DNA from: a virus
Direction: 5' to 3' (one strand)
Length of the DNA: 23,431 nt
Virus record (IMG/VR): IMGVR_UViG_3300023278_003366
Span: 1 to 23,431 of that record
The notes under the pieces are model-generated. The model did no database searches and was not told the DNA's origin. It saw only the letters and a program-made list of their open reading frames with translations. A program made the translations under genes and the position numbers. How positions within the stretch are numbered: position 1 is the first letter of the stretch; each line of letters begins with the position of its first letter. Positions 1-13,527 of this stretch are shown here, piece by piece.

Positions 1-384
1 ATGAAAATGAAGTCTATTGACGAAGATGATCTAGAGGGCTTCGAGTTACAGCTTGCATCAATCCAAGACTATCTAGAAAATTTTGATGAGAAAGATGCTG
101 TATCAAACTTCGCTATAGATAAAGGATTCCCAGACGATGGCTCTTTTGGTGGTCGGCTCCAATGCGGCTTTGCTAAAGAAAAAGGTCAACTCAAAAAAGA
201 CGGCTCTGTAATGTGGCACTGCCCTTATAAGTTCGATTTTTGGCACGTTAGCATCTTCGATAAAGATGGAGAGTTTCATTCTTCTTGCTTTCAAGATGAC
301 TTTAAAAAGGACATGGTTCCCGACGGGGGAAGTCATGAAATAAAATATTACGAAGGCTGTCCAAAACACTTGACAAATAGATAA
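1..384 (+). CDS. Unrecognised acidic protein with spaced cysteines (possibly 5'-partial)
   Basis: I do not recognise this protein. The window opens exactly on an in-frame ATG followed two codons later by another, so the true start could lie further left. The first 40 residues are acidic and probably helical. The rest is mixed beta-like sequence with Cys55, Cys74, Cys96 and Cys120, the last followed by His123, which could form a metal site, although the spacing is not that of a standard zinc finger. It ends 20 nt before the polymerase PHP-domain gene on the same strand, so it probably belongs to the replication block; that is inference from position only. Confidence 0.55.
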   Translation: MKMKSIDEDDLEGFELQLASIQDYLENFDEKDAVSNFAIDKGFPDDGSFGGRLQCGFAKEKGQLKKDGSVMWHCPYKFDFWHVSIFDKDGEFHSSCFQDDFKKDMVPDGGSHEIKYYEGCPKHLTNR

Positions 385-404: not shown

Positions 405-1094
405 ATGACACCTTTATTTAAAACTCATTTTTCTATAGGTCGCAGTATTCTTCGTATCGATGATATAGATAGGATTTGCACAGACGAAAACATAGAAGAA
501 ATTTTTCTAGTAGAAGATACGATGACTGGTTTCCCAGAGGCATTTCGCACCTTTGGTGATAAGCTAAGATTTGGATTTAGATTTTCTATTTACAACGAAG
601 ATCTTAGCGAAGAGTCTGAGAGCAAGATGATTGCTTTCCCAAATGGAGATGCTGGAGCCAAGGAATTGTATTCATTATATACCAAAAGCTTTGATAAAAA
701 AATTGTAAGTCCTTGGGAGTTTACCAAAAACATACAATATGTCGTGCCGTTTTATGACTCGTTCTTACATAAAAATTTGACTTCATTTTCAAACTGCATG
801 ATTGATCTGCCTTCTGATGTCCCTTTCTTTATAGAAAGAAATGGCCTACCATTCGACATGATTCTCGAAGAAAAAATTGTAGACTACGTCACTAACACTT
901 TTGGTAATGCCAAAGAGAATATCGAATTAGCAAAATCAATCTACTATGAAAATATTGAAGACGTTAGCGCTTTTCAAACATACAAATGCATATGCAACCG
1001 TAAGCCTGGCAGACAATCGAGTTTATCTAATCCACGACTTGATCATTTTGGTAGTGATCGTTTTTGCATAGAAGCCTGGAAGGAGGACAAATAA
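405..1094 (+). CDS. Stand-alone degenerate PHP domain of a DnaE-type DNA polymerase III alpha
   Basis: 229 residues. The chain follows the N-terminal PHP domain of DnaE from end to end. An opening KTHFSIG replaces the usual HTHSxxS. EIFLVEDTMTGFPEAFRTF replaces the 'ALTDHGxxxGAxxF' strand-loop-helix, and FGFRFSIY matches the 'IGCExYV' strand. NGDAGAKELYSLYTKS matches the 'GYxNLxxLxSxA' helix. The C-terminal SLSNPRLDHFGSDRFCI matches the 'DPNRxRFxxxxFYLKS' end of the domain. The first histidine and the TDH triad used for metal binding are gone, so it is probably structural rather than a phosphoesterase. ATG at 405 was chosen over an upstream TTG at 396 because homology begins at MTPLFKTH. The stop overlaps the exonuclease ATG (TAATG). 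It presumably associates with the polymerase core encoded two genes downstream. Confidence 0.7.
   Translation: MTPLFKTHFSIGRSILRIDDIDRICTDENIEEIFLVEDTMTGFPEAFRTFGDKLRFGFRFSIYNEDLSEESESKMIAFPNGDAGAKELYSLYTKSFDKKIVSPWEFTKNIQYVVPFYDSFLHKNLTSFSNCMIDLPSDVPFFIERNGLPFDMILEEKIVDYVTNTFGNAKENIELAKSIYYENIEDVSAFQTYKCICNRKPGRQSSLSNPRLDHFGSDRFCIEAWKEDK
1081..1086 (+). promoter_or_regulatory. Strong Shine-Dalgarno of the exonuclease gene
   Basis: A perfect AGGAGG lies 7 nt before the ATG at 1094, inside the end of the PHP-domain gene. It fixes the exonuclease start at 1094 rather than at the in-frame TTG at 1064. It is the best ribosome site I see in the window. Confidence 0.85.
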
Positions 1095-1726
1095 TGGAAG
1101 ACTTACTTAGATTTAAATTTGATCAAAAATACGTTATCTTTGACACCGAAACCGAGGGTCTAAATCTCGTTTCTTCAAAGCCTTGGCAACTTGCTTGGAT
1201 TGAGGCCAAAGGTAAAAAAATAACTAAAAAGCAAAACAGATTTTTAATGTGGGAAGACCTGCATGTTTCAGAGGACGCTGCAAGAATTACTGGATTCAGT
1301 AACAAAGACTATCTTTCTAAAGCCGAAGATCCAGCCGTAGTATTCAAAGAGTTTATGGATTTAATAAGTCAAGATGATGTCATTGTCGTTGGCCAGAATA
1401 TTCTTGGCTACGACTTATACATGCTTGGGGTTATCGCTCGTAATTTAAATATAAAAATAGATTACTCTTTCGCTAAGCGGTGTTTTGATACTAAGGCAAT
1501 TGCCACGGCTATTGCTAAAGACAACAAAAATCCAGATAAAGAAGATTTCTTAGCTTGGCAGTTAAGATATCTTAATTACAGAGAAAGAGGCTTAAAATCA
1601 AGTCAAAAGTTCTTATTGCAACATTATGATATTGACTTTGATGAAAAAAAGCTACATGATGCTTTGTACGATATAGAAAAGAACTTCGAAATATTTCAAA
1701 AACAATTATGGGAATTAGAAATTTAA
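1094..1726 (+). CDS. DEDDh-family 3'-5' proofreading exonuclease (DnaQ / PolC-exo type)
   Basis: 210 residues. Motif I is DTETEGL at 17-23 (Asp17, Glu19). Motif II is N102-ILGY-D107. Motif III is H188-DALY-D193, the HxxxxD signature of DEDDh exonucleases such as DnaQ. All four acidic metal ligands and the general-base histidine are present, so the enzyme should be active. It would remove mismatched 3' nucleotides for the polymerase. The gene overlaps the PHP gene by 1 nt and the polymerase core gene by 19 nt. Its place between the PHP and polymerase parts recalls Gram-positive PolC, where the exonuclease domain is inserted in the PHP domain of one chain; here the three parts are separate proteins. 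Confidence 0.88.
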   Translation: MEDLLRFKFDQKYVIFDTETEGLNLVSSKPWQLAWIEAKGKKITKKQNRFLMWEDLHVSEDAARITGFSNKDYLSKAEDPAVVFKEFMDLISQDDVIVVGQNILGYDLYMLGVIARNLNIKIDYSFAKRCFDTKAIATAIAKDNKNPDKEDFLAWQLRYLNYRERGLKSSQKFLLQHYDIDFDEKKLHDALYDIEKNFEIFQKQLWELEI

Positions 1727-4284
1727 ATCCTCTTGAACGCCCCATGCCTCCAGGCGTTCGTTTACCAGAAATTGAGGTAAAAAGGCGAGTCTATTACCAG
1801 CTTGACCTAGACCCTAAATCTTCTAACTACGACCTTCTAAGGGCGCTGTGCCTGCGTGGAGTCCAACAGAGAGGAATTGATAAGCTAGATAACAAAAAAC
1901 AATACTATGATCGTGTAAAAATGGAGCTTTCTGTTCTAAAAGAACTAGGGTTCATTGATTATATACTTTTAAATTGGGATGTTCTAAACTTCTGCCACGA
2001 AAATGAGATACCTACTGGCCCAGGTCGTGGATCTGCGGCTGGTTCTTTAGTTCTTTACCTGTTACGTGTTACCAATGTCGACCCAATTAAGTATGACCTT
2101 TTCTTCGAGCGCTTTGTTTCTAAAAGTAGAGCAAAGAAGACTATTGTAGACGGCATTACCTACCTTGATGGGTCTCTACTTGCTGACGTAGATAACGATA
2201 TTTCTTATGATCGTCGCCAAGAAGTTATAAAATATATTGAACAGCAACACAAGGGTAGAACTTGTAAAATTTTAACTCTTAACACTCTGAGTAGCAAATT
2301 GTGTGTAAAGGAGTGCGGTAAAATAGTTGGAGAGATGTCTGAAGATGAAGTAAATCAGATAAGTTCACTCATCCCCAAGCAGTTTGGCAAGGTAGCCAAA
2401 CTAGACCAAGCACTAGAAGAGAGCGACAAATTCAAAGAATTTGCGGATAAAAACACAAAAATATTTAAAATTGCAAAAAAATTAGAAGGATTAAACAAAA
2501 ATACAGGAGTTCACCCATCTGGTATCGCCATTAGTTTCTACGATATTGAAGAAATTATGCCGATGCAAAAAACAAACGACGGCGATTTAATATCCGCCTA
2601 CGACATGAACGACGTTGCGTCTTTGACTGTTAAGTTTGATATTCTTGGACTTAGAACCCTTTCTGTCGTAAGTGATACTTGCAAACAGTTGGGTATAAAT
2701 ATCGAAGATATAGATGTCGGACTCCCAGAAATATATGAAAACTTCAAATTCATTGAGGCACCAAAAGGTTTGTTCCAGATTGAAGCGGACACAAATTTTA
2801 AAGTCTGTAAAAAGATCGCTCCTAAAAACCTGGAGGAGCTGTCTGCTGTTGTTGCGATTGCTCGCCCTGGTGCACTTGACTATCTGGATATTTATGCTGA
2901 CTATGCTAGAACCTCAAGATTTCAGTCAGTTAATGAATTCTTTGACGATATTCTTTCTTATACTGGCGGCATTCCCCTATATCAAGAGCAGTTAATGAAG
3001 ATGGCCGTTAAGGTCGGATTTACTCTTGATGAGTCAGAGCAGCTCCGTAGAATTGTGGGCAAAAAGAAGGTCGATCAAATGCCCGCTTGGAAGGCTAAAA
3101 TTGAGCAAAAGATCGAAGAAAGAAATTTAGATAAAGAAGTCGGTGAAGTTTTGTGGAAGGTCGCAGAAGATTCAGCAAACTACTCCTTTAACAAATCACA
3201 CTCAATTAGTTATGCGATTCTCGCCGCTATAACAACTTATCTAAAGTTTAAGCACCCGCAAGAGTTCTTTCTTTCCTTGCTTAAAATGGCCAAGCATGAG
3301 CCAGACTCTCATGCAGAAATAGCTTTGATTAGCCAAGAGCTTTGCCAGTTTAACATTAAACTTCTTCCACCAGATCTATCAAAGTCTGACATCAACTTCG
3401 CCACGGAAGGTCGTGATATTAGATATGGCGTCAACAGCGTTAAGGGAGTATCAGAGAAAACCCTAGAAAACTTGGTTGATTTTAGAAAAGCTCAAGAAAC
3501 TAATCAAAATAAGTACGATATATTTACAAACGCCAAGCAAGCGGGTATTAATATTGGGGTGCTTTCTGGATTAATCCAAGGAGGCACAATGGACTCTTTT
3601 TGTGAAACAAATACGACCTTGCCAAATCGTTGCCGCTTAGTCTTAGAGGCTCAATCATTCAATATACTTACTGATAGAGAAAAAAGAAACATTATACAAA
3701 TCGGAGAAGAGTATAAATATGATGTTCTAAATACAATCCAATCAATCATTAAAGATTCTTTAATAGCGGATGATGGCAGACCAATCATGAAGCCGTCACG
3801 CTTTCAAACATTCAAAAATAAGTATAAAGGCTATAAAGATATATACGAAAAAAATAAAGATCACTTAGAGTTCGCAAATTGGTTTTTCGAACGTAAGTAT
3901 CTAGGATATAGCCACTCTACAGAAATTAAAAAAGTTTTTAAAGACTCTGGCAATCTCTATAATAGCTTAGAAATAAAGTCTGTAGAGGATCATGATAGAG
4001 TTAAGTTTGTAGGGGTAGTTACAGATTGCATTTCAAGAACGAGCAGAAATGGCAACAAGTATATGAGGGCTGAAGTGCAAGACGATTTCGGCAAGGTTAA
4101 TTTCATGCTTATGAATAATAGAAGGTCGTCCACTCTAGATAACTACTTAAACAATGGGGGCAAAAAGCCCAAAGAGGGAGAGATCGTTTTTGTTTATGGT
4201 AGTAAAGGCGACGATGTTATTTTTGGAGAAAAACTCTCCATTCTTGATGAAAAAATCTATACAAAACTTTCAGAAATAAAATAA
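1708..4284 (+). CDS. dnaE: DNA polymerase III alpha catalytic core (DnaE without its PHP domain)
   Basis: 858 residues against about 1160 in E. coli DnaE. The N-terminus lacks the PHP domain and begins in the linker before the palm/thumb. GPGRGSAAGS at 104-113 is the nucleotide-site motif. LADVDNDI supplies catalytic Asp160 and Asp162 (the PDxDxDF motif, equivalent to E. coli D401 and D403), and VKFDILGL supplies Asp311 (equivalent to D555). Fingers follow, then a helix-hairpin-helix region near 572-590 and an OB fold from about residue 765. The chain ends soon after, so the tau-binding tail of DnaE is missing or very short. It should be an active C-family replicative polymerase when joined by the PHP protein and exonuclease upstream. 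The stop overlaps the ATG of the Clp-like gene, so the two are translationally coupled. Confidence 0.93.
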   Translation: MGIRNLNPLERPMPPGVRLPEIEVKRRVYYQLDLDPKSSNYDLLRALCLRGVQQRGIDKLDNKKQYYDRVKMELSVLKELGFIDYILLNWDVLNFCHENEIPTGPGRGSAAGSLVLYLLRVTNVDPIKYDLFFERFVSKSRAKKTIVDGITYLDGSLLADVDNDISYDRRQEVIKYIEQQHKGRTCKILTLNTLSSKLCVKECGKIVGEMSEDEVNQISSLIPKQFGKVAKLDQALEESDKFKEFADKNTKIFKIAKKLEGLNKNTGVHPSGIAISFYDIEEIMPMQKTNDGDLISAYDMNDVASLTVKFDILGLRTLSVVSDTCKQLGINIEDIDVGLPEIYENFKFIEAPKGLFQIEADTNFKVCKKIAPKNLEELSAVVAIARPGALDYLDIYADYARTSRFQSVNEFFDDILSYTGGIPLYQEQLMKMAVKVGFTLDESEQLRRIVGKKKVDQMPAWKAKIEQKIEERNLDKEVGEVLWKVAEDSANYSFNKSHSISYAILAAITTYLKFKHPQEFFLSLLKMAKHEPDSHAEIALISQELCQFNIKLLPPDLSKSDINFATEGRDIRYGVNSVKGVSEKTLENLVDFRKAQETNQNKYDIFTNAKQAGINIGVLSGLIQGGTMDSFCETNTTLPNRCRLVLEAQSFNILTDREKRNIIQIGEEYKYDVLNTIQSIIKDSLIADDGRPIMKPSRFQTFKNKYKGYKDIYEKNKDHLEFANWFFERKYLGYSHSTEIKKVFKDSGNLYNSLEIKSVEDHDRVKFVGVVTDCISRTSRNGNKYMRAEVQDDFGKVNFMLMNNRRSSTLDNYLNNGGKKPKEGEIVFVYGSKGDDVIFGEKLSILDEKIYTKLSEIK

Positions 4285-5768
4285 TGGATTTTACTAAATT
4301 TGATTTAACACCTAGCTCTAAAAGCGTAATTGAAGATGCTCGTAAAATAGCAGGAGACTTCGATCACTTAAAAGTGATAGACCTTCATCTTTTTTATGCT
4401 ATTTTGTGTAAGGAAAATGCTAATATTAATTTCTCGTTAAGTAGCTTGGAAATTAATCAGGCCGCCTTGTCTCAAGCATTTTGGGAAATTTTATCTTCCT
4501 ACAAAGAACCTAAAAGAAAGAAAAAAATTTATGCACCAGAGATTTTTGATATATTAGATGGAGCTAAATCAATTGCTAAAAAACAAGGTCACCAATATAT
4601 TGGGATTGACCACATCTTTCTTTATTGCTTAAAATCCAGAGAAGATATTAATGATTTTTTGACTACGCTAGAAATTAATGTAGAAAATTTAATAAAAACC
4701 GTTTCTATTTGCATATTAAAAGGTTTTGAACATGCGGTTCCTCAACCAACAAAATCAAATCAAGTTAAAGAATCAAATCCAATTGAATCTTGCTGTGAGA
4801 ACTTAAACGAAAAAATAGCAAATAGGGGTACTTTTGAAATATTCGGTAGAGATAAAGAGACAGATAGAGCTTTTGAAGTTCTGTTAAGAAAAAACAAAAG
4901 TAATGTAATTTTTGTAGGCGAAGCGGGAGTAGGTAAGACTGCAATTGTAGAAGGAATGGCAGAAAAAATAGTGAAAAGAGAGTGTCCAGATATGCTTTTG
5001 CATAAAGAAATACTGACGCTTGATATAACTTCTTTGATTTCTGGAACTATTTTCAGAGGCCAGATGGAAGAAAAAATTAAAAATATTTTAGACTTCGTTG
5101 CCAGTAGTAATCAATACATTTTGTTTATTGACGAAATACATACTATAGTTGGATCTGGTAATTCTGAAGGCACATTGGATCTAGCAAACATTCTAAAGCC
5201 AGCTTTATCTAGAGGAGAAATTTCTTGTATAGGCGCAACTACAGAAAAAGAATATAAAAGATTTTTCAAAAAAGACTCTGCCCTTGATCGACGGTTTGAA
5301 AATATAAATGTAGCGGAACCTTCAGATGAAAATACTAAAAATTTAATTATGAAAGCTAAAAAATCATATGAAGATTATCACCAAGTAAAATACACAGAAG
5401 AAACGGTTGACTTAATAATGAGCCTTTGCTCCAAGCATTTGCCAAACAAAAAATTTCCAGACAAGGCTTTTGACATTTTAGATGAATCTGGAGCTAAAGC
5501 AAAAATGATAAATTTTGTCAGACCTCAAGAAGCAAAAGATCTTGAACCCCTGCTTCAGGAAGAAAAAGACAAAGACTCAAAATATTTTAAAAAAATTCAC
5601 AAAAAATATGAGAAAATTCTCACAAAATGGGGAGAAAATTTAGAAAAAAAGACGTTTTTTGTTGACAATGACATTATATATGATATATTTGCTCATAAGT
5701 TAGACACAACTCCAGAAAATATAAAAAATGGGAAAAGTTTTAGAGTAAGTGGGCAAATAGGTTTTTAA
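4284..5768 (+). CDS. Single-module Clp/Hsp100-like AAA+ ATPase (Clp-N domain plus D1, no D2)
   Basis: 494 residues. Residues 1 to about 150 resemble the double Clp-N repeat of ClpA/ClpC/ClpB. Then comes the Hsp100 D1 AAA+ module: Walker A GEAGVGKT at 212-219, Walker B ILFIDEIHT with Asp283-Glu284, sensor region GATTEKEY, and arginines Arg336-Arg337 in ALDRRF. A lysine/glutamate-rich segment at about 430-460 and a short domain like the 'VTxEDIAxVVxxxTGIP' linker follow. The protein stops where D2 would begin, so the second ATPase ring and the ClpP-docking loop normally found in D2 are absent. Bacterial relatives are about 750-850 residues. The clean stop and intact motifs argue against decay. 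Start/stop overlap with the polymerase gene suggests a role during replication, but substrate and partner are unknown. Confidence 0.85.
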   Translation: MDFTKFDLTPSSKSVIEDARKIAGDFDHLKVIDLHLFYAILCKENANINFSLSSLEINQAALSQAFWEILSSYKEPKRKKKIYAPEIFDILDGAKSIAKKQGHQYIGIDHIFLYCLKSREDINDFLTTLEINVENLIKTVSICILKGFEHAVPQPTKSNQVKESNPIESCCENLNEKIANRGTFEIFGRDKETDRAFEVLLRKNKSNVIFVGEAGVGKTAIVEGMAEKIVKRECPDMLLHKEILTLDITSLISGTIFRGQMEEKIKNILDFVASSNQYILFIDEIHTIVGSGNSEGTLDLANILKPALSRGEISCIGATTEKEYKRFFKKDSALDRRFENINVAEPSDENTKNLIMKAKKSYEDYHQVKYTEETVDLIMSLCSKHLPNKKFPDKAFDILDESGAKAKMINFVRPQEAKDLEPLLQEEKDKDSKYFKKIHKKYEKILTKWGENLEKKTFFVDNDIIYDIFAHKLDTTPENIKNGKSFRVSGQIGF

Positions 5769-8705: not shown

Positions 8706-9170
8706 ATGCAATATAATCTATATAAACCCAACTCAAAAGGAACTGGTTGTGCTTTTTCCTTTAAAATTATTACAAAAGATAAGGAAGGCAATCCATCTAA
8801 GCCAACGTTTTTAATTCAATCTATTAAGCAAGCTAGCTGGAACGCTCAAAAAAGAACTGGCTCATTTAGCGCTAATGCAAAAGACCCAGAAAAAAATATT
8901 TATTGCAAAATCAATGAAAACGAAGCGGGTGCCATTTTAGATGCTATTGAAAAATATTCAGATTTCTCCGCATTTCACACATATAATGATGATAAAACCA
9001 CAATCTCACTCAAGCCTTACACAAAGAACAATGGCGTGAATGCTTGGTCATTTGGCGTCATTAAAAACTCCACACTTAAGTTTGGTATTGGAATTGAAAT
9101 TGGTGAAGCTAGAACTCTAAAAAGTTTACTAGAGCTTTATCTCATCAAATTTTTTACCTTTGAAGGTTAA
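8706..9170 (+). CDS. Possible ssDNA-binding protein with PC4/Whirly-like strand-helix pattern
   Basis: 154 residues. The order of elements is suggestive of PC4/Whirly-type ssDNA-binding folds: strand-rich FSFKIITK and TFLIQSIKQASWN, KNIYCKINENEAGAILDAIEKYSDFSAFHTYN (strand, helix, then the characteristic SxFH turn), then TTISLKPY, WSFGVIKN, and a final GIEIGEARTLKSLLELYL helix. Whirly proteins show a comparable strand, 'ExxxLxxL', 'FxHDP', strand, strand, 'SxAEAxxLxxxxxYxLP' order. I rest this on pattern only, with no decisive motif. The stop overlaps the glycosyltransferase ATG (TAATG). It could instead be a small unrelated beta-rich phage protein. Confidence 0.6.
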   Translation: MQYNLYKPNSKGTGCAFSFKIITKDKEGNPSKPTFLIQSIKQASWNAQKRTGSFSANAKDPEKNIYCKINENEAGAILDAIEKYSDFSAFHTYNDDKTTISLKPYTKNNGVNAWSFGVIKNSTLKFGIGIEIGEARTLKSLLELYLIKFFTFEG

Positions 9171-10861
9171 TGAAAAAAATTCTTTTCCACTCTAATTCAG
9201 CTAAAGCTTTCACGGGTTTCGGAAAAAATGCGAAAAATATTCTTCGCCATCTTTACAAAACTGGCAAATACGAGATTATTGAATTTGCAAATGGGCTTCA
9301 ATGGGGAGACCCTTCTCTCTCACTAAGACCTTGGAAAGCTCAAGGTTCGCTTCCAAACAACCCATCTGTAATACAACAAGTGAATCAAGACCCCCAAAAG
9401 GGTCGTGCTGCTGGATATGGAGCGTACACAATAGATGCCGCAATAAAGCAATACAAACCAGACATTTACCTTGGTGTAGAAGACATCTGGGCTTTTGCGG
9501 GCTATTACGATAAACCTTGGTGGAATAAAATCAATAATATGATTTGGACAACACTAGATAGCCAACCTATTTTACCTCAAGCTATTGATGCGGCTCCAAA
9601 AACAAAAAACTTTTACTCTTGGGCGTCCTTTGCCGAAAGAGACTTAAAGAAAATGGGTCATGAAAACGTCGGCACGCTTCACGGCACAGTTGACACTAAT
9701 GATTTTTTTCGAATGTCTAATCATGAAAGACAAAACTTAAGAAATAAATTTGGGTTAAACGATGAGTTTATTATTGGGTTTGTGTTTAGAAATCAGCTTC
9801 GCAAAAGCGTGCCAAATTTAATGGAGGGTTTTAAAAGTTTCAAAAAAGATCATCCTAAAGCAAAATTGCTTTTGCATACTCACTGGTCAGAAGGTTGGGA
9901 CATCCCAAGACTGATTAAAGAAAAAGAACTTAAAAACGAAGATATATTAACTACCTATTTTTGTTCTGCTTGTGGAGCGTACGAAGTTAAGCCATTTGTT
10001 GGACAGAAACAAACATGTCGGTTTTGTGGCACAGAAAAATCACTAAACACCACTAATGTGGGTGCTGGAGTAAACGAAAGTCAACTTAATGAGATTTACA
10101 ATCTTATGGATGTTTACTGTCACCCCTTTACAAGCGGCGGTATGGAAATTCCTATTTTTGAAGCAAAAATGACGGAACTAATAACTCTTGTAACAAATTA
10201 TTCTTGCGGAGAAGATTCATGCACATCTGAATCTGGCAGTTTTCCTTTAGATTGGTCTGAATACAGAGAGCCAGGAACTCAGTTTATTAAAGCTTCAACC
10301 TATCCATCAAGCATAGCCAAACAACTTAAGAAGGTTTACCAAATGAAGCTCGATAAGCGTCTTCAAATGGGAAAAAAAGCAAGAGATTGGACAATTGAAA
10401 ACTACTCTACTGAATCTGTAGGAAAAAAACTTGAAGCCATTCTAGATGCAATGCCAGATGTAGATTATGATTTTACAAATGTGCATGAATCTGAAGAAGG
10501 CAAAACAGAATTAGAAGATTTGTTGGATGACGGTAAAAGAATCGCTGTTTTAATGCCTGAATCGGCAGGGGATGTTTTATGGATTAATAGTTTAATGACA
10601 AACCTTAAAGATCTTTACCCTTCACATGATATATATGTCTTCACTAAAAATACATTTTTTGATTATATTGAAGATCATCCGTGCGTTCACAAAGCCTTGC
10701 CTTATTCTCAGAATATAGACAATCTGCACGCCCTAGAAGGAAAAGAAAGCCATGAAGGGCTTTTTGATATGGCCTTTTTGCCTCATTACGGAACTCAACG
10801 TTTCCATAATTATCATCATAACGGTTTAGATAAAACTCAATTTGAATTATATGAAAATTAA
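9170..10861 (+). CDS. GT4-like glycosyltransferase with internal zinc knuckle, fused to the N-terminal half of a GT9 domain
   Basis: 563 residues. Residues 1 to about 430 form a GT-B glycosyltransferase: N-terminal FHSNSAKAFTGFGKNAKN, an acceptor-domain region, then RNQLRKSVPNLMEGF and SGGMEIPIFEAKMTELITLVT, the donor-site segment of GT4 enzymes (the first Glu of the usual EX7E is Gly). Inserted at Cys265-x2-Cys268-x14-Cys283-x2-Cys286 is a zinc-ribbon-like knuckle. Residues about 465-563 are a different domain: RIAVLMPESAGDVLWINSLMTNLKDLYP and the following strand match the start of GT9/ADP-heptose-type transferases. It stops before the GT9 donor half, which is encoded at 11233-12357. Likely role: adding sugar to virion or host-surface glycans; donor unknown. 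It is start/stop coupled to the upstream gene. Confidence 0.82.
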   Translation: MKKILFHSNSAKAFTGFGKNAKNILRHLYKTGKYEIIEFANGLQWGDPSLSLRPWKAQGSLPNNPSVIQQVNQDPQKGRAAGYGAYTIDAAIKQYKPDIYLGVEDIWAFAGYYDKPWWNKINNMIWTTLDSQPILPQAIDAAPKTKNFYSWASFAERDLKKMGHENVGTLHGTVDTNDFFRMSNHERQNLRNKFGLNDEFIIGFVFRNQLRKSVPNLMEGFKSFKKDHPKAKLLLHTHWSEGWDIPRLIKEKELKNEDILTTYFCSACGAYEVKPFVGQKQTCRFCGTEKSLNTTNVGAGVNESQLNEIYNLMDVYCHPFTSGGMEIPIFEAKMTELITLVTNYSCGEDSCTSESGSFPLDWSEYREPGTQFIKASTYPSSIAKQLKKVYQMKLDKRLQMGKKARDWTIENYSTESVGKKLEAILDAMPDVDYDFTNVHESEEGKTELEDLLDDGKRIAVLMPESAGDVLWINSLMTNLKDLYPSHDIYVFTKNTFFDYIEDHPCVHKALPYSQNIDNLHALEGKESHEGLFDMAFLPHYGTQRFHNYHHNGLDKTQFELYEN

Positions 10862-11249
10862 TATTCCAATATCAGTAGGCGAACTCGTTGATAAAATTAC
10901 AATTCTTGAAATTAAATCGATAATGATTAATGACAAATTTAAATTGGCCGAAGTCAAAAACGAAAAAACTCAACTCACGAAAGAGTTTGAAAAAATTTGT
11001 AACGCTAATCTTTCTAAATCACAACTCTTTGCCCTAAAAGCAGATCTTTATGAAACCAACTTAAGACTTTGGCATATTGAAGATAATATCAGAAAGAGTG
11101 AACGAAATAAGGATTTTGGCGCAGAATTTATTAGATTAGCCAGAAGTGTTTATCAGGCAAATGATATGCGATTTGGTCTTAAAAACAATATTAATCAATT
11201 AACCAATTCAGACATAAAGGAAGTAAAATCATATGAGTCATATAGCTGA
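10851..11249 (+). CDS. DUF6165-like protein
   Basis: 132 residues. The N-terminus INIPISVGELVDKITILEIKSIMI followed by DKFKLAEVKNEKTQLTKEF is what I recall of the DUF6165 family, small helical proteins of unknown function often encoded near glycosyltransferases. The rest is predicted helical with many charged residues, including a WHIEDNIR helix. I chose ATG 10851 over an upstream TTG at 10842 because the conserved sequence starts there. It overlaps the GT4/GT9-N gene by 11 nt and the GT9-C gene by 17 nt, in a third reading frame, so it lies exactly between the two halves of the GT9 domain. Confidence 0.72.
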   Translation: MKINIPISVGELVDKITILEIKSIMINDKFKLAEVKNEKTQLTKEFEKICNANLSKSQLFALKADLYETNLRLWHIEDNIRKSERNKDFGAEFIRLARSVYQANDMRFGLKNNINQLTNSDIKEVKSYESYS

Positions 11250-12357
11250 AGTATACGCTAAAGATTTGGGAGTCAAAATAGGCAAACCAATAATTACCGA
11301 ACATTTTTTTCCTGGGCTTCCAGAAAAATATATAACGATACAATCTTCCAATAAAATGCCAGCGGCTAACTATCTTTATTGGGATATGGTGGTTACTATG
11401 ATTAAACCCTTCCTTAAAGATATTAAAATAATTCAAATTGGCGGCCCGAATGAAAATTTAATCAAAGGCGTTAATGCTTCAGCTCTTGGCTCATCATATA
11501 AACAGATGAATTATACTATTAGAAAAGCGCAAGCTCATGTTGGATGTGACAGTCTTCCAGGTCATGTAGCTAGTGCTTATGATGTGCCTTCGGTAATTTT
11601 GCATTTTAATCTCTACAAGGAGAATTCTAAACCCCTGTGGCATAAAAATAATTCTTGCATAAGTCTTTCGCCAGATTTCTCAAAAATCAAACCTTCCTTT
11701 GGGACAAATTGCAAAAGAATCAATGAGATAAAACCAGAAATCGTAGCGCAGTCTATTTTAGATCAGCTAGAAATTAAAGAAAAAATAAAATTCAAAACGG
11801 TCAGAATAGGTAGCGCATTTCATGACGATGTAGTAGAAATTGTCCCTAACTTTTTCGCTTTCTCTCAAGAACTATCTGGAAAGGCGATTAACGTCAGGGG
11901 AGATATAGAACACAACCTAGATAATATCTGTCAATGGTGTCAAATGTGTATGGTGAATCTTAATTTATCTGATGTTTTTGATTTAAATATCTTGCCATAC
12001 ATGCCAAACCTTAAGCAGGTCACTTACAAATATGACACGAGTGAAAAAAGAGATCTCACTTATTTCTTCAAAGCTTTAATAAATAAAAAAATCAATGTAA
12101 TTATACAAGTTAAGGACGGAGAGAATATTTCCAAAGTCCGTCTTAAATATTTTGACTTTTTAGTTGTAGACGACAGCAAAGTAGATCATGAAACAGTCAA
12201 GGCTTCGAAATTCGTATCTAAAAAAAGGTTTGTTTCTAATGCTGAAATTTTCCCTTCTGAATCTTCCGCAAAAAGGCTTGACAAATCTAATAGTTTCGTA
12301 TATGATGAAGCCTCAAAACTAGAACTAGAAAACTTATATCTATATGACGAAGAATAA
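11233..12357 (+). CDS. C-terminal (nucleotide-sugar) half of a GT9-type glycosyltransferase plus unassigned C-terminal domain
   Basis: 374 residues. Residues 1 to about 185 are the second Rossmann-like half of a GT9/heptosyltransferase: EKYITIQSS, a helix, DIKIIQIGGPNE, SYKQMNYTIRKAQAHVGCDSLPGHVASAYDVPSVILHF. The last segment is the family's 'li~~a~~~igxDSGxxHxAxAxxxPxVxlF' donor-site region. The first half of that fold is missing and sits at the C-terminus of the protein at 9170-10861. The ~190-residue remainder (SAFHDDVVEIVPNFF, QWCQMCMVNLNLSDVFDLNILPYMPNLKQVTY) looks like a leucine-rich alpha/beta domain that I cannot name. The two polypeptides presumably assemble into one GT9 enzyme. Confidence 0.75.
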   Translation: MSHIAEVYAKDLGVKIGKPIITEHFFPGLPEKYITIQSSNKMPAANYLYWDMVVTMIKPFLKDIKIIQIGGPNENLIKGVNASALGSSYKQMNYTIRKAQAHVGCDSLPGHVASAYDVPSVILHFNLYKENSKPLWHKNNSCISLSPDFSKIKPSFGTNCKRINEIKPEIVAQSILDQLEIKEKIKFKTVRIGSAFHDDVVEIVPNFFAFSQELSGKAINVRGDIEHNLDNICQWCQMCMVNLNLSDVFDLNILPYMPNLKQVTYKYDTSEKRDLTYFFKALINKKINVIIQVKDGENISKVRLKYFDFLVVDDSKVDHETVKASKFVSKKRFVSNAEIFPSESSAKRLDKSNSFVYDEASKLELENLYLYDEE

Positions 12358-13084
12358 ATTATACGGCCCAGACATCTGGCAACGCAACGAACACGGACTC
12401 TTAGAGTCTGTTGAATATGAATTTAATGAAGATGGCTCAGTCAATTGGCGAGCTATGATTAGCCCAGAACACTTATACCCCAATAAGGATCACTTCGAAA
12501 TGCGCAAAATGCCAGTTCCAGATTCTATCGAGGGTTTAGAAGACAACCAGCTTTTGATTAAGCTTGGAGGAATTAAAGAGTTAGCGAAGCTTCGTGGCTT
12601 TCATAATTTGACATACGACATTTACGAGTCTTCTGACGATCGTGTTGTGACCCAGTGCATGATTAATTGGATTGACAACTACGAAAGTAATGGCAGTCAA
12701 ACATTTAGTTCAATAGCTAATGCCACCATTCACAATACAAACGGATTTGCTGCTAAGTTTTTGGAATGCATTGCAGAAAATCGTGCGTTTGTTCGTGCTG
12801 TTCGCAACTTTCTTGGTATTCATATTGTCGGAGCTGATGAGATTGACTCTTCTAAGAACAAGTCTCCTATCGTAGCTCCCCCTTCATCCTCTGGAGCGAA
12901 GGATATTAGCCCACAAGGCATTCTAAAGGAAAAAGCGGGTGTAGACTTCAACTCTTTCAAGAACAAGCTCAGAGAGCTTTACAAGGACGAGAAATACAAG
13001 AATGACCCCGAAGTAATTAAAGCTTGGGGAGACTATAAAGACATCCCAGCAAAAGAATGCAGAAAATTGTTAAAACTGGTTTAG
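12344..13084 (+). CDS. Candidate single-strand annealing protein, Rad52-like
   Basis: 246 residues. The centre has a phage recombinase-like pattern: LGGIKELAKLRGFHNLTYDIYES, a strand VVTQCMINWID, FSSIANATIHNTNGFAAKFLECIAENRAFVRAVRNFLGI. The ending resembles the 'AExRAxxRAxRxxL' helix seen in several phage annealing and Rad52-superfamily proteins. A Pro/Ser-rich linker (about 175-190, APPSSSG) joins a charged C-terminal helical region that could bind a single-strand DNA-binding protein. The family assignment is from pattern alone; a DNA-binding protein of another family is possible. ATG 12344 overlaps the GT9-C gene by 14 nt. Confidence 0.62.
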   Translation: MTKNKLYGPDIWQRNEHGLLESVEYEFNEDGSVNWRAMISPEHLYPNKDHFEMRKMPVPDSIEGLEDNQLLIKLGGIKELAKLRGFHNLTYDIYESSDDRVVTQCMINWIDNYESNGSQTFSSIANATIHNTNGFAAKFLECIAENRAFVRAVRNFLGIHIVGADEIDSSKNKSPIVAPPSSSGAKDISPQGILKEKAGVDFNSFKNKLRELYKDEKYKNDPEVIKAWGDYKDIPAKECRKLLKLV

Positions 13085-13527
13085 GTTTTATTTTTAAAGC
13101 GGAGGCTATTGAGGAGTTTTCTAAAGCTTTAGATGATGTCTATGAAAAGACTCAATTAGATACCCACAATGGCCTTCCGTTTAATAAAAATTGTCTAGAA
13201 TCTTATCTTTCTAACCCAAAGATTTTTAAAAACTTTTTTGCTTATGGTTTTATGAACCATGATAATAAAGTTACAGCTGGCATTATATGGCAAAAGGGTT
13301 TTGACTATACAACTAAGTCAAAAACTCTGGCCGCTGTTCTTTGGGTTTCTGAAGAAAAAAAAGCGTCCTTAAGTTTATTTAAAAAATCTCTAGAGCATAT
13401 AGAATCTATTTATAAGTATGACGTTTTGATATGCGGTAATTCTTTTGACAATGAGAAATTAGAAAAATTTTACAAAAGATTAAATTTTAAAAAACTTAAT
13501 ATATTTTATAAAAATATTAATCAGTAA
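13057..13527 (+). CDS. GNAT-like N-acetyltransferase-fold protein
   Basis: 156 residues. The C-terminal FYKRLNFKKLNIFYKNI is the 'FYxxxGFxxxxxxYxK' ending of GNAT acetyltransferases. Before it, KVTAGIIWQKG and KTLAAVLWVSEEKKASLSLFKKSLEHI fit the beta4/alpha3 region, although the acetyl-CoA-binding Q/RxxGxG/A loop is not obvious. It may therefore be a divergent or inactive member. It overlaps the annealing-protein candidate by 28 nt and ends in an 11-nt tail-to-tail overlap with the last gene of the minus-strand tail operon. Substrate unknown. Confidence 0.62.
   Translation: MQKIVKTGLGFIFKAEAIEEFSKALDDVYEKTQLDTHNGLPFNKNCLESYLSNPKIFKNFFAYGFMNHDNKVTAGIIWQKGFDYTTKSKTLAAVLWVSEEKKASLSLFKKSLEHIESIYKYDVLICGNSFDNEKLEKFYKRLNFKKLNIFYKNINQ

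Follow-up and report, generated by a model that had tools for sequence, protein, structure and literature searches.

What kind of enzyme does a phage make when the parts of its DNA polymerase III (Pol III) alpha subunit are encoded by three separate genes? The question is raised by positions 405 to 4,284 of the IMG/VR virus record IMGVR_UViG_3300023278_003366. The window analyzed here is this complete record of 23,431 bases, which probably represents part of a phage genome. Three consecutive genes, called PHP, EXO and POL in this text, are found in this region:

405..1094, + strand: PHP gene (ATG 405, TAA 1092-1094; 229 amino acids), predicted stand-alone, complete DnaE-type PHP domain without any alignable metal ligand
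1080..1087, + strand: Shine-Dalgarno-like sequence AAGGAGGA, inside the PHP gene, 6 nucleotides ahead of the EXO start codon
1094..1726, + strand: EXO gene (ATG 1094, TAA 1724-1726; 210 amino acids), predicted DEDDh 3'-5' exonuclease
1708..4284, + strand: POL gene (ATG 1708, TAA 4282-4284; 858 amino acids), predicted PHP-less DnaE-type Pol III alpha core

PHP and EXO overlap by 1 nucleotide (TAATG) and EXO and POL by 19 nucleotides, in different frames. The start and stop codons bear out the coordinates and overlaps that a first-pass annotation had given for these genes. The best answer to the question, to which we assign a probability of about 0.8, is a working, derived DnaE-type replicase of the C family. 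Its alpha subunit would consist of two polypeptides, PHP and the remainder of the chain, whose genes are separated by that of a dedicated DEDDh exonuclease.

Relatives of the locus were collected by scanning IMG/VR five times and bacterial genome contigs once, and the window is counted with them. All family counts are among the matches listed; the complete three-gene loci hold at least 162 distinct POL sequences (43-100% identical), and the uncut loci include some contigs counted more than once. PHP, EXO and POL are separate and in the same order in 255 of the 255 loci that no contig end truncates, which excludes a chance arrangement. In each of the 32 incomplete loci, the missing part falls where the contig or stretch ends. 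No fusion of any of the three genes was found in any family member, the largest in-frame extensions being 37 amino acids before POL, 11 after PHP and 46 before EXO. The spacing at the junctions ranges from -43 to more than 1000 nucleotides, and whole genes are inserted in some relatives. These extra genes occupy either the PHP-EXO or the EXO-POL junction, which means that the products are necessarily separate chains, and the assignment of three separate polypeptide-coding genes is confirmed.

Both junctions are insertion hot spots for small, unrelated genes, as seen in 13 relatives. The inserted genes include a LAGLIDADG-like (homing) endonuclease (in L116) and SET-like, cupin-like and methyltransferase-like genes, names that come from reading the sequences and not from searches.

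The POL product is, judging from its sequence, a C-family polymerase with a DnaE-type core comprising Pol-beta-like palm, fingers and helix-hairpin-helix (HhH) regions. It matches the Pfam families DNA_pol3_alpha (7e-62), finger (1e-27) and HHH_6 (5e-14). Among solved structures, it matches DnaE chains with E values of 1e-104 to 1e-79 and no PolC chain at E 1e-3. In a global hhalign comparison, POL aligns to residues 255-1105 of E. coli DnaE (of 1160; E 1.6e-142). The catalytic residues D160, D162 and D311 are identical in 162 of 162 sequences.

The POL genes of some relatives carry further interruptions. In L154, L156, L162, L200 and L295, POL is interrupted between FNK and SHS (K496 and S497 of the window) by a putative split intein, read by eye. 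Its parts lie in separate reading frames: the N part of POL is followed by about 98 amino acids, the first of which is Cys, and the C part is preceded by about 40 amino acids whose last two are SN. The extra DNA between these parts amounts to 0.2-0.9 kb in most of them and to almost none in L295. The cyanobacterial DnaE split intein sits a few residues upstream of this position. Another relative (L149:7923-11711) shows an in-frame intein-like insertion of about 375-400 amino acids in POL (RR/CVTGD...IIHN/C, the slashes marking its ends) before the VGKKK motif.

The EXO product can be assigned by sequence to the DEDDh (DnaQ-like) exonucleases. It matches Pfam RNase_T (1.5e-10) and phrog_192, "DNA polymerase exonuclease subunit" (4.3e-21). 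Its best match among solved structures is the PolC exonuclease domain 2p1j (2.6e-7), and DnaQ is also matched (1.7e-5). The catalytic residues D17, E19, D107, H188 and D193 are identical in 162 of 162 sequences. An origin of EXO from the fused exonuclease of Bacteroidetes was considered on account of similar motifs and is not favoured (41 bits, versus 48 for an actinophage DnaQ-like protein).

The identity of the PHP product is not revealed by sequence family searches. The 229-residue protein has no Pfam match and no meaningful PHROG match, a sequence search of the PDB with the PHP alignment returned nothing real, and tblastn of PHP in isolated phages gave no match at E 1. The assignment comes from structure and profile-profile comparison. 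An AlphaFold model built on an alignment of 21 sequences reached a mean predicted local confidence (pLDDT) of 79.8 and a predicted template-modelling score (pTM) of 0.79. The top Foldseek matches of this model are the PHP domains of DnaE, followed by those of PolC (E 3.3e-8 to 5e-5). VIA-align superposes residues 1-229 of the model on residues 6-247 of E. coli DnaE with a Z-score of 18.0 (root-mean-square deviation 3.3, 216 residues). For comparison, the Z-score is about 15 for PolC, 8 to 12 for other enzymes of the PHP superfamily and about 6 for unrelated barrels. The profile comparison agrees: against 17 bacterial and phage C-family PHP domains, hhalign aligns PHP (1-229) end to end with residues 1-257 of E. 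coli DnaE (E 1.7e-16). The DnaE-specific C-terminal segment of the fold is present according to both the structural and the hhalign comparison. On these grounds 405-1094 is assigned as a complete DnaE-type PHP domain, and the PHP label first given to this gene, which an unrelated profile would have spoken against, holds.

The metal site of this domain has been replaced. Seven of the nine metal positions (reference motif HHDHEH(C/H)DH) can be aligned by hhalign and two are unaligned. The alignable positions read L4 (uncertain), K6, E37, R59, K74, S178 and Y180 in the window, so that no ligand is kept at any of them. From K6 to Y180, the same residues or similar ones predominate across the family. 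K6, E37, R59, K74 and S178 are each present in at least 90% of 172 PHP relatives, and the N-terminal HxH motif appears in 0 of 173 PHP sequences. The former site holds another conserved set of residues (K6, E37, D38, R59, K74, PFYD 115-118, E144, N146, K177 and S178). Because no metal ligand is retained, the HxH motif is absent and the positions are conserved as other residues, PHP is very likely not a nuclease.

The position of the break is exact. In the hhalign comparisons PHP ends at residue 257 of E. coli DnaE and POL begins at residue 255, so that nothing is missing at the junction. As the aligned ranges (1-257 and 255-1105) meet without loss, PHP and POL together rebuild one full DnaE chain. 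The EXO gene lies exactly at this junction, after a complete PHP. The first-pass annotation had argued that each break falls at a domain border and that the genes encode a working split enzyme rather than a decaying one. The hhalign borders agree with the first point, and the selection on the genes, described below, supports the second.

Median ratios of non-synonymous to synonymous substitution (dN/dS) are 0.054 for PHP, 0.034 for EXO and 0.030 for POL. Pairwise distances correlate at 0.89 between PHP and EXO, 0.91 between PHP and POL and 0.97 between EXO and POL, the maximum of the null being about 0.07. Since these correlations are far above the null, the three genes travel together; they are under strong purifying selection and coevolving. 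In the tree, the three-gene family forms one clade with 100/100 support, on a long branch, its sister group not being settled by the tree.

From adjacency and coevolution, we infer that the products of POL, PHP and EXO would assemble on the primer end as one enzyme. POL would synthesize DNA, and PHP would attach to it, without a covalent link, at the place that the fused PHP occupies in DnaE. No longer a nuclease, PHP would hold the exonuclease and serve as an adaptor between POL and EXO, proofreading being thereby carried out in trans. This adaptor role is suggested by E. coli, whose PHP, with a degenerate metal site, binds epsilon, and by the fact that elsewhere an inactive PHP is compensated by DnaQ-type exonucleases (PMC3919608, PMC12926913). 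The split would have arisen as a derived condition in a single phage clade and would not be a step towards PolC.

Several points weigh against this reading. That the three products bind one another is a prediction. The OB signal of POL, C-terminal to HhH, is a Pfam match at 766-832 that remains below the cut-off (15.4 versus 27 bits); this region also gives a weak alignment to residues 1035-1083 of the Taq enzyme, and strands at 764-845 in a poor model. No match of POL covers the whole tau-binding C-terminal domain, the alignment stopping at residue 1105 of 1160 in E. coli. No clamp-binding motif was recognized in POL by eye, no motif model being used. The structure model of POL is poor (pLDDT 61.8, pTM 0.35), too poor for a fold search. 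The phage collection searched holds no member of the clade, all members being metagenomic. Finally, the long relative records described below may be incomplete, in which case a second polymerase could lie in their missing parts.

The alternative that survives best is that PHP has left the polymerase for another role, in which its rebuilt pocket might bind a nucleotide, DNA or a host protein, and that it shares only the operon with EXO and POL. PHP does evolve somewhat faster than EXO and POL, it correlates less with these two than they do with each other, and its former metal site holds a different but conserved set of residues. However, PHP is present and near in every uncut locus, its DnaE-specific fold is complete right up to the C-terminus, and a fused PHP that might stand in for it occurs in no family member. 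We therefore regard this departure of PHP from the enzyme as unlikely. A related and tentative idea, rather doubtful at present, is that the free PHP is an exchangeable adaptor that both recruits and regulates the exonuclease, or binds a new ligand via its conserved Lys/Arg-rich pocket, so that proofreading could be switched on or off by protein exchange and not within a single chain.

The role of the set in replication was considered in 12 long relative records (1.6 Mb). Each of them carries one Pol III alpha, and neither PolA nor PolB was found in any of the 12. A DnaB-type helicase gene lies upstream on the same strand in these records, usually within about 10 kb. No second Pol III alpha was found in the window or in any relative record checked; thus, the intact second copy beside a decayed set, raised earlier as the sign of a dead locus, is absent from them. 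The three-gene set is probably the replicase of the phage itself. It could instead be a repair or accessory polymerase, the phage genome being copied by the host replicase; the lack of a clamp motif recognized by eye and the only partial identification of the phage replication genes would fit this. But no other DNA polymerase of family A, B or C was found in the 12 long records, and DnaB is encoded upstream in the same orientation, which makes an accessory role highly improbable.

The first-pass annotation had also described the locus as an intermediate or derivative between DnaE and PolC. As an evolutionary intermediate, it would show the entry of the exonuclease into the PHP region, and the location of EXO between PHP and POL, together with the PolC exonuclease domain as the best solved-structure match of EXO, points in that direction. 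However, the exonuclease of PolC lies inside PHP (PMC3919608), whereas EXO comes after a PHP that is complete. At E 1e-3, POL matches DnaE chains but none of PolC, the PHP model resembles DnaE more than PolC (Z 18 versus 15), the OB signal that POL has is C-terminal, and the family is one clade. The idea of an intermediate is thus unsupported, and we give it almost no credit. Weaker still, to the point of being negligible, is the notion that the gene breaks reflect decay, a sequencing or assembly artefact, or programmed frameshifting that bridges them, for although the genes overlap by 1 and 19 nucleotides in different frames, the breaks are identical in 255 of 255 uncut loci, the junctions vary in spacing and even contain whole genes, EXO has its own strong predicted ribosome-binding site (AAGGAGGA), and the three genes are under purifying selection.

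Two neighbouring genes flank the set:

1..384, + strand: C-terminal end of the upstream gene, a neighbour outside the enzyme; full length in relatives about 331 amino acids, PD-(D/E)XK nuclease, assigned by synteny
4284..5768, + strand: Clp-like gene with a single AAA+ module (phrog_4871, 2.1e-98; Pfam AAA_lid_9 and AAA); no replication role is implied

The identity of the upstream nuclease comes from an intact relative (L035:4985-5977), which matches PDDEXK_1 (4.7e-15). The ClpA-like gene overlaps POL by 1 nucleotide and stays adjacent in most relatives, with no match in L030. Further downstream, between the replication and tail modules, the window carries two glycosyltransferase-like genes (9170-10861 and 11233-12357) and an acetyltransferase-like gene (13057-13527). 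Its right half contains lambda-like tail genes of the J, I, K and L types.

Three-gene contigs are also found in metagenome-assembled genomes (MAGs) of bacteria of different phyla: L287, L291-L293 (Flavobacteria-named), L294 (Halobacteriovorax) and L295 (Verrucomicrobiales). Two different three-gene contigs, L291 and L292, belong to one MAG. All of these are probably phage contigs, maybe mis-binned, as bin names conflict (Flavobacteriaceae, Halobacteriovorax, Verrucomicrobiales and others). The MAG names possibly hint at Flavobacteria as hosts.

The locus shows PHP, exonuclease and polymerase separated throughout a large and diverse clade, in which a PHP without metal site is kept under strong selection. 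Because the parts are three proteins and this PHP is retained, a non-cutting role of PHP can be tested directly by mixing or omitting parts. The three-gene set is in addition a marker of uncultured phages that form a widespread group and carry a PHP gene missed by Pfam.

How does this arrangement compare with known polymerases? In the canonical single-chain DnaE, PHP is at the N-terminus of the same chain, which is not the case in the window or in any of the 255 uncut loci. Bacteria and most phages checked also have PHP and polymerase in one chain, unlike the three-gene clade. The Pol III core of E. coli (DnaE1 plus epsilon) shares the PHP, palm/fingers and HhH domains, a putative OB domain and a separate DEDDh exonuclease, and the PHP metal site of E. 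coli DnaE is degenerate too. Here, however, PHP has its own gene, the exonuclease gene lies between PHP and POL, the OB signal is weak and the tau-binding C-terminal domain is not clearly seen. PolC is a single chain with the exonuclease inserted inside PHP and OB on the N-terminal side (PMC3919608). The likeness is a C-family polymerase with its own DEDDh exonuclease; the difference is that here PHP is complete and separate, the exonuclease comes after it, and POL matches DnaE chains only. In Bacteroidetes, DnaE1 has the order Exo-PHP-Pol in one chain with a variable PHP site (PMC3919608), and this type of N-terminal exonuclease was seen on the DnaE1 of L327 and L328. There too the exonuclease is dedicated to a DnaE-type polymerase, but the three-gene clade has three chains in the order PHP, EXO, POL, and EXO is not specially close to the Bacteroidetes exonuclease.

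Among phages, the closest cases are Rhodococcus phage Grayson (gp102/gp103) and Microbacterium phage Krampus (gp56/gp57), in which PHP and POL are adjacent genes with the break at the same domain border. In both of these isolated phages the annotation gives the genes no name beyond DNA polymerase III alpha or DNA polymerase (Krampus L321:2321-5672, Grayson L324:2573-6305); the splits are visible in it, and no paper discussing them was found. They differ from the three-gene clade in having no exonuclease gene between PHP and POL. Their free PHP also keeps its metal ligands (nine of nine in Grayson, all but one in Krampus, with E for D), unlike that of the clade. In the tree, Grayson and Krampus lie beside fused relatives and away from the three-gene clade. 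Given these separate positions, the PHP/POL border has been cut at least three times independently. The contrast suggests a trade between PHP and exonuclease proofreading. In Pbunavirus PB1, an RNase_T-family exonuclease gene (gp58, 3'-5' exonuclease) lies directly upstream of the polymerase gene (gp57, DnaE), but the polymerase chain itself still begins with the PHP region, to which Pfam gives a weak PHP match (0.0034).

Other phages divide the polymerase elsewhere. The group 2.2 jumbo phages have a split minimal Pol III alpha (Iyer et al. 2021, PMC7824862), which likewise places a C-family polymerase in separate phage proteins. There the cut is inside the core, the genes are distant and without PHP, and PolB coexists, whereas here the POL core is intact. 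DnaE is also in two genes in Mycobacterium phage Fowlmouth (gp85/86), Bacillus phage KLEB27-3 and Lactobacillus phage 8014-B2, but there the division falls within the palm or behind it and leaves PHP joined to palm sequence, as seen in Fowlmouth and 8014-B2 and deduced for KLEB27-3 from coordinates.

The first-pass annotation knew of no described phage polymerase of this form. This claim stands in part. The combination of free PHP, free exonuclease and PHP-less core in this order was not found outside the clade, and no description of the three-gene form was found in open-licence papers. On the other side, the two-gene PHP/POL splits of Grayson and Krampus, the exonuclease-DnaE pair of PB1 and the jumbo-phage split already exist. 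The novelty is therefore partial: split C-family polymerases were known, and what is new is a three-gene replicase fixed in a large clade of uncultured phages.

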